Positions 129 to 7,123 of a stretch of 29,447 bases of DNA are shown here, in pieces. The notes beneath the pieces are model-generated. The model ran no database searches and was not told where the DNA came from. It was given only the letters and a program-made list of their open reading frames with translations. This stretch comes from a virus. Position 1 is the first letter of the stretch; the number at the start of each line of letters is the position of its first letter. The DNA lies in the IMG/VR virus record IMGVR_UViG_3300047461_000038, positions 1-29,447 of that record; one strand, given 5' to 3'. Made by a program: the position numbers and the translations under genes.

Positions 129-1751
129 TTAGAACTCCTGTTTATCGTCTGCTACAGGACACGATGTTTCAATCATACGACCTGTGTCCTTATCATAGTA
201 CAAGTAACAAGCAGGACCAGTTAGACCCGCGAACCTGTTCTTCAGTACGCGCACCGTAGTGGTGTTTCGTACCGTTGGGTCAGCGTTCTGTTGGTCGCGC
301 TCCAGACCAATCACCATGTCAGATAACTGTGCAATAGATGCCGAACCTCGCAACTCTGCCAAGCTAATCTGTCCACCGTCTTCGTGTGCTTTGCCTGACG
401 GTCTGCGTAGGTGAGACACCAAGAACAAACCAACGCCTGTCTCCTGTACCAACTGACGTAGCTTGGTCATAATAGAGTCAATGGCTTTACGCTCATCTGC
501 AATCTCTTGGTCGGACACAACGATGCTCAAGTGGTCAAGAATAATCCATTTGCAATCAAGACCTTTCGCCATATACCTAATGCGACTTAGTAAGTTATCC
601 TCATTGGTTGAACCCCAATGGTCAAACATAAAGATACGTCCTGTACCCAACGTCTTGTCCCAAAAGACTTTCTTGGTTTCCCTGTCAAACTCTCGGCTAA
701 GATGTAAAGTCTGATTAGCCTCGATGCTCATAATCCCTAGAGCCGTCTTTGGTATGTCCTCCTCTAGTGCAAGTATGCCAATGTTGTCGTCAGTCGCACC
801 TAGTAAGTAGTGTTCCAACTCTCTGACAATCTGTGATTTACCCATACCTGAACCACTGGTTATTGTTACTAGTTCTCTTTCTCTGAATCCATAGGTGAGG
901 TCGTTGAGGCATTCCCACGGGTAAGGGATAGATTGGACTTCTTCTTGCTCAATGATTGACTCCCATGTATCGCTACCAGAGATAATACCATCAGGGCGAT
1001 AAGTTTTAGCATTCCACCACTCCTTTATAAAACCTTGTACATTACGTTCCTTCAGCATTTCACCTGCGTCCTTTACAGGCAACTTTACGTTCTTCGCTTT
1101 GTTGGGTGTAAATAAATCTAACACCGCACGAGATGCTTCCTGACCCGCTGTATCGTTATCAAAACATATTACTACGTTCTCAAAGGATTCAAGCCATTCC
1201 AAGTTCTGCTTGATGTCCTTTACTGCTCCTGACGCGCCTGACCGTATTGACACAACTGCCCACTTACTGTCAAACATTTCCGACACCGCTAGGGCATCAG
1301 CCTCTCCTTCTACTACTGTAATGTATTTACCACCACCCTTGAACGCTTGTTGACCGAACAGACCTACGTTATCAAACGTACCGCTAGAGTAGAATGCTTT
1401 GTTATCTACAATGCGCGACTTAGTCCCTGTCTGTGTGCCTGTGTCCTTGTCAAAGTAAGGGTAGTGGTGCTTGCTTATGTTCCCTTCTGTGTCGTATTCA
1501 ACGGTAACGCCAAACTTCCTGCACGTTGCCTCTGATATACGTCTGTCTGGGATTGATGCTATAACACCTGTCATTTCTAGTTTCCTATTTGCCTTCGGTT
1601 TACTCTCTATAACTTCGCCAGTTGCTCTCTCGTAGTGGTCACAACCGCCTGAAAAACAGACGGCATGACCATCGGAGTACCTCGCTAAGTTATTCCTAGA
1701 GCCACACGATGGGCATGGCTCATGTCTAACAAAGTGAGAGTCATTGGACAT
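129..1751 (-). CDS. Primase-helicase, T7 gp4-like
   Basis: 540 aa, close to T7 gp4 (566 aa). Domains in order: N-terminal zinc-binding domain with C13, C16, C32, C37 (last pair spaced Cx4C rather than Cx2C); TOPRIM primase domain with the acidic motif VVEGEADAL around residue 145 and CFDND near 197; RecA-like helicase with Walker A GSGMGKS at about 300-306, Walker B-type WIILDHLSIVVS, and LFLVSHLRRP and ELRGSASIAQLSD motifs. The C-terminus is acidic and ends in Phe (ADDKQEF), like the T7 gp4 tail that docks on the polymerase. It unwinds the fork and makes RNA primers. The ATG (1751-1749) overlaps the ssb stop as TAATG, and the polymerase GTG follows the stop directly. The high similarity in all motifs makes the call safe. 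Confidence 0.96.
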   Translation of the reverse strand: MSNDSHFVRHEPCPSCGSRNNLARYSDGHAVCFSGGCDHYERATGEVIESKPKANRKLEMTGVIASIPDRRISEATCRKFGVTVEYDTEGNISKHHYPYFDKDTGTQTGTKSRIVDNKAFYSSGTFDNVGLFGQQAFKGGGKYITVVEGEADALAVSEMFDSKWAVVSIRSGASGAVKDIKQNLEWLESFENVVICFDNDTAGQEASRAVLDLFTPNKAKNVKLPVKDAGEMLKERNVQGFIKEWWNAKTYRPDGIISGSDTWESIIEQEEVQSIPYPWECLNDLTYGFRERELVTITSGSGMGKSQIVRELEHYLLGATDDNIGILALEEDIPKTALGIMSIEANQTLHLSREFDRETKKVFWDKTLGTGRIFMFDHWGSTNEDNLLSRIRYMAKGLDCKWIILDHLSIVVSDQEIADERKAIDSIMTKLRQLVQETGVGLFLVSHLRRPSGKAHEDGGQISLAELRGSASIAQLSDMVIGLERDQQNADPTVRNTTTVRVLKNRFAGLTGPACYLYYDKDTGRMIETSCPVADDKQEF

Positions 1752-2119
1752 TAGAAGTCACCGCCACCGTCAGATGGTTCTGCTAACTCTAACACCTTTA
1801 CCTTAGACAGGTAGGTTGACGTTCCATGTACTGGGTGGGGTTTACCCTCGGCGTACTGTACCCGTACCTTAGAACCTCGCGTTAGGCGACCACTAAAGTC
1901 GTTACCGTCTGCATCGTAAATAGGTACTTCATACTTAGTGCTAAACTTACGCTGTGCCGTACCTTCGTACTCGCGTAGCTTGACACCCTTGTTGGCTAGA
2001 TTATCCGCATCAGCGGGTTCTAGTGATAAAACTAGGGAATACTTCCCAGTAGATTGACCCTGATATTCTTCATGTTCGTCAAGGTTAGCGAACGCTACGT
2101 TACCTTCTAATACTGCCAT
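1751..2119 (-). CDS. Probable single-stranded DNA-binding protein
   Basis: 122 aa. It starts MAVLEGNVAFANLDEHEEYQ and is rich in predicted beta strands (KYSLVLSLE, SKVRVQYA, YLSKVKVLEL), consistent with an OB fold. It ends in an acidic tail finishing with an aromatic residue (EPSDGGGDF), the hallmark of phage and bacterial SSBs such as T7 gp2.5 that recruit polymerase and helicase. It is the first gene behind a strong promoter and overlaps the primase-helicase start by one base. The ATG has GAAGG about 9 nt upstream. Expected role: coat ssDNA at the fork and stimulate synthesis and annealing. The family is inferred from size, tail and position; the sequence is not a close T7 gp2.5 match to my eye. 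Confidence 0.75.
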   Translation of the reverse strand: MAVLEGNVAFANLDEHEEYQGQSTGKYSLVLSLEPADADNLANKGVKLREYEGTAQRKFSTKYEVPIYDADGNDFSGRLTRGSKVRVQYAEGKPHPVHGTSTYLSKVKVLELAEPSDGGGDF

Positions 2120-5918: not shown

Positions 5919-6292
5919 GCCTTTATTCCAATTTTTTATATAACTTTTTTGCATAACCTCTATGGGTTGTCATAACCAAATGTTATACCCTATGCTAGCC
6001 ACTGACTGACTACGCTACAACCCGCGCCACTACTGGGCTAGAGCAAATCCCCGCGATTAAGCCCTTACCCCTTGCCATTGTATAGGTTGACCGTAACCCC
6101 GCTTAAACCTCAATTCTGGGGCTTCTAGGACTATATAACCCAAACGCATAACGTGGGATTGTCTTTATAATTTTTTAGCATTGGACTACTTGTTGTGTTC
6201 TGTGGTAGGGCTATAGGTATCCACTAGCACACTTTCTTTCCCGCCACCAGTCCTACTAATGACCGCCTCAAGGTTTTTGGTCATAGACTACC

Positions 6293-6355
6293 TGTGGATA
6301 TCCTGTGGATAACCTGTGGATAACTCGGGGGTGCCTGTGGATAACCTGTGGACGG
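6293..6355 (+). other. Array of five DnaA-box-like iterons; candidate replication origin
   Basis: TGTGGATAA (reverse complement of the DnaA box TTATCCACA) occurs exactly at 6304, 6315 and 6336, with variants TGTGGATAT at 6293 and TGTGGACGG at 6347. All are in the same orientation and each is preceded by CC. Start-to-start spacings are 11, 11, 21 and 11 bp, about one and two helical turns, so all sites face the same side of the helix. AT-rich patches lie upstream and A-tracts downstream. The array could be an origin bound by host DnaA, a DnaA sink, or iterons for a phage initiator. Confidence 0.75.
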
Positions 6356-6375
6356 GGCGGGGGGGTGCGCGAGGG
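6354..6375 (+). other. G-quadruplex motif next to the DnaA-box array
   Basis: Four G-tracts on the plus strand: GGGG (6354-6357), then GGGGGGG (6359-6365, enough for two tracts), then GGG (6373-6375) after a 7-nt loop. It meets the usual G3-N1-7 rule. It overlaps the last iteron and stands out in an AT-rich genome. Confidence 0.55.
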
Positions 6376-6565
6376 CGTGAGGCTGGCACGGTTCCCGCAC
6401 GTATACAAAAAAAGCCTAAAATTGAAAAAAAGAATGCCTAATGTTTATACCTCTAAGTTGTTGTTTTCCTTAAGTTTTCTTAGGCGGGGATTAAGGATGA
6501 CTAATATATAAAAAAGGGTCACTTAAGTAAGGAACTAATATTTTAATCGGGGTCTAAAATAATGC

Positions 6566-6594
6566 TTGACTTTCGGTCTAAAGTATGCTATAAT
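6566..6594 (+). promoter_or_regulatory. Strong rightward sigma70 promoter
   Basis: TTGACT (6566-6571), exactly 17 nt, extended -10 TGcTATAAT with TATAAT at 6589-6594. Predicted start near 6601. It drives the packaging block. It resembles the promoter at 11661 in the -35 flank, in TATGnTATAATAT and in spacing. Confidence 0.92.
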
Positions 6595-6623
6595 ATGGAT
6601 ATAATAAAGACATTGTTTAGAGC

Positions 6624-6709
6624 CTTAAGTATACTTAAGTATTGTTTAGTTATTAATCTTTAATGTTTAATAATAAACGCTATCCTAAGGATACTTAAGA
6701 TAACTTAAG
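6624..6709 (+). promoter_or_regulatory. Paired CTTAAG operator-like sites in the leader
   Basis: CTTAAG-TATA-CTTAAG (6624-6639, a perfect 16-bp palindrome) and CTTAAG-ATAA-CTTAAG (6694-6709): two pairs with the same 10-bp period. Further single CTTAAG sites lie at 6469 and 6522. Direct repeats ATTGTTTAG (6612-6620, 6641-6649) flank the first pair. The second pair ends in the ribosome site AAGGAG, so binding there could block translation or elongation. Confidence 0.55.
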
Positions 6710-6718
6710 GAGAGTCCA

Positions 6719-7123
6719 TTGGATACTAAAGAAAATCCTCCGAAAAGGAGGGGGCGACCACCGAAGTCCTCGGTTGTGTCAAGAAAGAAAGGGGCGACGG
6801 GGTTGTCACGGGGTCGTCCCAAAGGTGACGCGGCAATAATCAACGAATACAAGAGTAGGATGTTGACCTCGCCAAAGTCAAAGAAGGTGTTGGAGTCAAT
6901 ATTTGACGCGGCACTTAACGATGACCACAAGCACCAGTCAGCCGCTTGGAAACTTATTGTAGATAGGATTGTCCCTGTAGGAGCGTTTGAAAAGGATGTT
7001 GTCAAAGGCGCAGGGAAGTCAGCAATACAGATAAACATTACTGGAGTTGGTGGAGAAACCACGGTGGTGTCAAATACAGAAGAAGAAGATGACATCTTAG
7101 AAGGGGAAACTATAGATGGCTAA
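6719..7123 (+). CDS. AT-hook protein, putative terminase small subunit
   Basis: 134 aa, TTG start at 6719 with AAGGAG 6 nt upstream; no in-frame ATG lies near. The N-terminus has two AT-hook-like cores, KRRGRPPK (about residues 9-16) and SRGRPKGD (about 30-37), expected to bind the minor groove of AT-rich DNA. The middle is helical (KKVLESIFDAALNDDHKHQS and AAWKLIVDRIVPVGAFEK), and the end is a Gly/Glu-rich acidic tail. As the first gene of the packaging block, with large terminase and portal nearby, it probably recognises the packaging site. The helical region resembles proteins I recall beside phage terminases. It could instead be another DNA-binding packaging factor. Confidence 0.6.
   Translation: MDTKENPPKRRGRPPKSSVVSRKKGATGLSRGRPKGDAAIINEYKSRMLTSPKSKKVLESIFDAALNDDHKHQSAAWKLIVDRIVPVGAFEKDVVKGAGKSAIQINITGVGGETTVVSNTEEEDDILEGETIDG

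Follow-up and report, generated by a model that had tools for sequence, protein, structure and literature searches.

Does a phage with T7-type replication genes make use of host DnaA and, if so, for what? T7-type replication is the textbook case of a phage independent of host DnaA. The question arises from a 29,447-base marine phage fragment of IMG/VR (the window, meaning the whole stretch analysed), in which a group of sites resembling DnaA boxes lies in the gap between two divergent operons (Table 1).

A phased array of putative DnaA boxes between divergent operons

On recheck, the coordinates, shared orientation and spacing given in the original prediction proved correct, the site starts stepping by 11, 11, 21 and 11 bp in one orientation throughout. 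Five sites had been claimed; four stand as boxes, and the fifth is only a half-box, TGTGGA, with three mismatches over the full 9-mer. Four same-strand sites with at most one mismatch fall within 52 bp, against a maximum of two in 1000 dinucleotide-preserving shuffles of the window, and isolated two-mismatch matches elsewhere in the window occur at chance level (96 observed, 100 expected). The array in the window is real. A chance cluster was rejected on the window shuffles and on permuted motifs in relatives; together with the phase statistic (both below), these also uphold the claim that the turn-by-turn spacing exceeds chance. We likewise rejected a coding repeat, since the array is intergenic with divergent operons on either side and the sole overlapping ORF is mechanical, and a stable hairpin formed by the array strand (z = 0.18).

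Table 1. Features of the window at and around the array of putative DnaA boxes
Feature	Position	Strand	Remarks
Primase-helicase, T7-type (phrog_239)	129..1751	-	leftward operon
gp2.5-like ssDNA-binding protein (phrog_112)	1751..2119	-	
Conserved GGTATCCACTAGCAYAC element	6216..6232	-	GTRTGCTAGTGGATACC on - strand
Inverted repeat ATGACC...GGTCAT	6259..6284	.	adjoins array
DnaA box 1	6293..6301	+	TGTGGATAT, 1 mismatch to TGTGGATAA
DnaA box 2	6304..6312	+	TGTGGATAA, perfect; reverse complement of TTATCCACA
DnaA box 3	6315..6323	+	TGTGGATAA, perfect
DnaA box 4	6336..6344	+	TGTGGATAA, perfect; 21 bp after box 3
Half-box TGTGGA	6347..6352	+	continues CGG; full 9-mer TGTGGACGG, 3 mismatches to TGTGGATAA
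G cluster GGGGCGGGGGGG	6354..6365	+	directly 3' of array
Conserved element GTATACAAAAAAAGCC	6401..6416	+	3' of G cluster
AT-rich non-coding leader	6410..6718	+	six CTTAAG copies between 6469 and 6709
Sigma-70-type promoter TTGACT-17-TATAAT	6566..6594	+	serves rightward operon
134-aa ORF	6719..7123	+	immediately precedes lysis and terminase genes

Genetic surroundings of the array

The leftward genes of the window also include a ribonucleotide reductase C-terminus, and the rightward genes include endolysin, terminase, portal and major head protein. The claim of T7-type replication genes held for the primase-helicase and the gp2.5-like single-stranded DNA-binding protein, while no DNA polymerase was identified in the fragment; of 16 relative contigs, 11 encode a family A polymerase. 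The window and five relative contigs, which may be incomplete, yielded no T7-type RNA polymerase, whereas the search did detect one in phiEap-1, used as a control. Priming in the style of T7, by an RNA polymerase of the phage itself, therefore seems unavailable, and we rejected an array of promoters for such a polymerase. A temperate replicon was also rejected, there being no tyrosine integrase in 13 records.

Among the smaller elements, the 134-aa ORF is a possible small terminase subunit, judged from position alone and without a family match, and the GGTATCCACTAGCAYAC element possibly belongs to the leftward promoter region. Repeats comparable to the inverted repeat, of the form GTGAC...GTCAC, were seen by eye in relatives. 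A G-rich tract occupies the position of the G cluster in most relatives, whether boxes are present or not. Six of the 17 CTTAAG sites of the window fall within 241 bp of the leader (6469-6709), partly as CTTAAGTATACTTAAG palindromes, and are possibly operator or packaging sites.

Recurrence and turnover of the array in related phages

Eighty terminase relatives (75-98% identity) were fetched, and the comparison took in 59 upstream regions (the window among them), each 1 kb or longer, an array being defined as at least three boxes within 150 bp. An array was found at the equivalent place in 25 of the 59. The 400 permuted motifs used for comparison averaged 0.15 such loci and never exceeded 2, not counting one shifted register of the motif itself. 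In an unsupervised search of the same 59 regions, TGTGGATAA was the top array-forming 9-mer upstream of terminase, found exactly at 18 loci and ranking above every shifted register. The arrays of relatives usually lie 0.8-2.3 kb before terminase, directly ahead of the G-rich cluster and a conserved TATACAAAAAAG element. By the original prediction, a lack of conservation in relatives would have refuted it; this check came out in favour of the array, although its recurrence is patchy.

Against the 25 regions with an array, 22 relatives possess the region yet lack it. The terminase tree calls for 13 or more gains or losses of the array, at least 8-9 of them forced by well-supported branches, and even near-identical terminases differ (L005 with an array, L006 without). 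With respect to the leader, the arrays of L059, L065, L071, L074 and L078 point the opposite way. Such patchiness speaks against an origin that the family must have; the array is a modular accessory found in about half of its members. Among left-flank genes, none forms a family restricted to array carriers throughout the phage family, and a tie between the array and a particular early gene was rejected for want of such a family-wide link.

Several further observations concern the same slot. L059 (150-254) and L065 (1280-1366) hold a second cluster of DnaA boxes 2.5 kb left of the first, in both orientations and followed by AT-rich DNA. Relatives without boxes often hold other repeats there, as judged by eye: GTGTGCGCAG-type repeats in L002 and L010, CTGCACC-N5-GGTGC repeats in L073, L075 and L079, and GTGAC...GTCAC inverted repeats in L021, L026, L028, L029 and L041. 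The slot looks as if it were open to interchangeable control elements. Sigma-54-type -24/-12 sites, TGGCAY-N5-TTGC, number 37 in the upstream regions, where spacers of 3, 4, 6, 7 and 8 give 0 or 1 each. They lie 1.1-2.3 kb upstream of terminase in L012-L014, L016, L017, L035, L042, L043, L052-L054, L057 and L067, nearly all leftward, the distance to the first DnaA box often being 24-27 bp; in L042, L043, L052, L054 and L057 they come as tandem triplets spaced by 26-36 bp. The window has no exact site of this type, and no phage-encoded sigma-54 activator was found.

An attempt to identify the host via bacterial genomes turned up nothing beyond distant terminases and phage-like contigs binned with unrelated MAGs. 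Contigs L212-L218, whose terminases are 65-71% identical to the family, were binned with Sphingobacteriales, Verrucomicrobiales, Acidimicrobiaceae, Flavobacteriales, Euryarchaeota and Crocinitomicaceae; these are probably phage contigs mis-binned into unrelated MAGs.

Host DnaA as the probable binder

Same-strand spacings in relatives cluster at 11-12, 19-23, 31-34, 41-45 and 53-55 bp. Across 23 non-redundant arrays, consecutive same-strand spacings were 11 (25 cases), 12 (8), 19-23 (34) and 31-34 bp (12), and the spacing phase reached R = 0.73 at a period near 10.6 bp, the highest of 5000 null sets being 0.42. The extended repeat unit in these relatives is AACCTGTGGATAACTT. Of the single mismatches in their boxes, 25 of 47 fall on position 5, the free N of TTATNCACA. 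For comparison, 119 viral contigs were collected by the pattern CCTGTGGATAACCTGTGGATAAC, which itself imposes an 11-bp step; 90 of the 119 arrays lie outside long ORFs, where 33 were expected. Single mismatches in unrelated viral contigs concentrate on positions 3 (33 of 89) and 5 (32 of 89), as the DnaA consensus TTWTNCACA (quoted in PMC11447400) predicts.

The helical-repeat spacing and the mismatches on the N of the consensus make host DnaA almost certainly the intended binder, and we hold this with high confidence. The description of the sites as DnaA boxes on a helical phase in a divergent region is thus borne out by the 9-mer rank, the mismatch positions and the spacings. Iterons for an unknown phage initiator had been offered as an alternative. 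The lambda ori, bound by the O protein, is an iteron origin, and the present array resembles it in its phased direct repeats and as a possible origin; it differs in that the repeat is an exact host DnaA box and no initiator gene accompanies it. DnaA domain IV was not found in 16 relative contigs, and a phage-encoded DnaA-like initiator was rejected accordingly. This and the lack of a left-flank gene tracking the array weaken the proposal, and with a modular accessory array and no linked initiator, iterons of a phage initiator are unlikely.

Similar arrays in other phages

Comparison of the 74-bp array with annotated phages matched 336 records, whereas the same letters reversed matched 3. The matched phages include T7-like phages of enterobacteria, T5-like and N4-like phages, actinophages and Microviridae. 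Exact direct terminal repeats enclose the arrays in phiEap-1 (195 bp), ZK1 (292 bp) and A7 (177 bp), and a T5-like phage has its boxes in the left terminal repeat. Among the 82 records listed, the match lies within 10% of a genome end in 52, against 16 expected, a count in which related phages are over-represented, rows are not independent and some records are permuted. In L204 and L231 (phiEap-1), L203 and L232 (ZK1) and L228 and L233 (A7), a large part of the direct terminal repeat consists of the array. Phased TGTGGATAA boxes also occur at 1070-1165 of L211, a Gokushovirus (ssDNA microvirus), in an intergenic stretch beside VP4.

The terminal-repeat arrays of phiEap-1, ZK1 and A7 resemble those of the marine family in having non-coding TGTGGATAAC units separated by roughly one to three turns of the helix and in T7-type replication; they differ in their terminal location, and phiEap-1 encodes a T7-type RNA polymerase, of which none was found in the marine family (window and five relative contigs). 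PMC13250531 (citing Heusterspreute et al. 1987) describes the T5 injection-stop signal, located in the left terminal repeat, as holding DnaA boxes, and this region is the documented precedent for DnaA boxes in a phage. T5 shares with our array the boxes, a repeat-rich non-coding control region and a lytic lifestyle, but its signal is part of a terminal repeat and has been linked to DNA entry in two steps, whereas the marine array is known from a fragment interior. Literature on DnaA boxes in lytic phages is sparse, mainly origin predictions and T5, and we found no general account of such arrays in the literature searched, which did not extend to subscription papers. Recurrence in many unrelated phages looks like a widely used, hardly studied phage route to host DnaA. 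We tentatively suggest that phased arrays are a portable 'DnaA-capture' module, repeatedly gained in control or terminal regions of unrelated phages and recruiting or disabling DnaA, whose carriers may include T7-like, T5-like and N4-like phages, actinophages, Microviridae and the present marine family.

Possible functions of the array

The explanation that we favour, with confidence close to even for the whole of it, is that the array is a platform for a DnaA oligomer and for opening of the leader. Head-to-tail boxes on one helix face would seat a cooperative oligomer of host DnaA, which would help to open the adjacent AT-rich leader, where the T7-type primase-helicase and polymerase of the phage would then start; the array would be an accessory origin element in about half of the phage family. 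Few parts of the window are less stable than the leader stretch 6502-6701, a candidate unwinding element. In 13 relatives, DNA stability across the locus is lowest 37-332 bp right of the array, and in unrelated viral contigs DNA near arrays was less stable than other intergenic gaps in 37 of 47 cases (p = 0.0007, gap lengths unmatched). The check by cumulative GC skew gave a minimum at 5.5-6.5 kb of the window, which fits the array site, but the signal is confounded by divergent transcription. Sites for DnaA at E. coli oriC include low-affinity ones with 2-bp gaps. Like bacterial oriC, the array has head-to-tail sites, 11-bp steps, flanks CC...C as in R1 and an easily unwound AT-rich element alongside, although relatives without boxes have the AT-rich leader too. 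Unlike oriC, its boxes are perfect rather than weak, its orientation is not fixed, and it is dispensable in close relatives, whereas an essential origin should be in all members. DnaA-trios were not enriched beside the boxes (1 seen, 0.8 expected), and trio-type unwinding was rejected. Because the array is dispensable and reversed in some relatives, that its effect falls on replication initiation is, in our estimate, slightly less than an even chance; similar arrays under other replication modes, including the ssDNA Microviridae, also count against an origin.

Multiplying phage genomes, with 4-8 high-affinity boxes each, could instead tie up host DnaA, thereby blocking or resetting initiation in the host and freeing nucleotides and replication capacity for the phage. 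Such titration is known from datA, a locus that takes up disproportionately many DnaA molecules and depends on IHF. The array resembles it as a cluster of DnaA boxes outside oriC, but sits on a multiplying phage genome. Boxes that are mostly perfect, in either orientation, dispensable and unlinked to any one replication gene would suit a sink, as would the widely differing replication modes of array phages, which share the DnaA target and not a common origin mechanism. Yet boxes per genome are few and would take effect only once many copies exist, mere counting needs no strict helical phase, which is kept across unrelated spacers, and the adjacent AT-rich stretch is left unexplained. We consider a sink rather unlikely, and the unstable leader and the lack of a detected T7-type RNA polymerase tip the balance from a pure sink towards an origin assisted by DnaA.

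DnaA also acts as a transcription factor, and between divergent promoters it could repress or activate the leftward replication or the rightward packaging operon, by which the phage would sense the replication state of the host. The array does lie between divergent operons, near the conserved leftward element and the inverted repeat, and some relatives have sigma-54-type sites or other repeats in its slot; however, box number, position and orientation vary, and no annotated gene adjoins the terminal-repeat arrays of the T7-like phages examined. We regard transcription control as less probable still. Improbable, in our view, is a role at the genome end or as a pause in DNA entry. The arrays within the exact terminal repeats of phiEap-1, ZK1 and A7 and in the left repeat of the T5-like phage speak for it, as do the matches of annotated phages, generally near genome ends, and the T5 injection-stop signal, for which such a role has been proposed and which PMC13250531 describes as holding DnaA boxes, but the array of the window sits in a fragment interior.

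The observation itself is confirmed and the identity of the boxes as DnaA sites is strongly supported; sequence by itself does not tell origin, sink and regulatory roles apart. A selected phased array in phages that carry T7-type replication genes, as well as in T7-like enterobacterial isolates, where it occupies the terminal repeats, suggests that contact with DnaA may be a common, overlooked step of lytic infection, one that laboratory coliphages allow to be tested.
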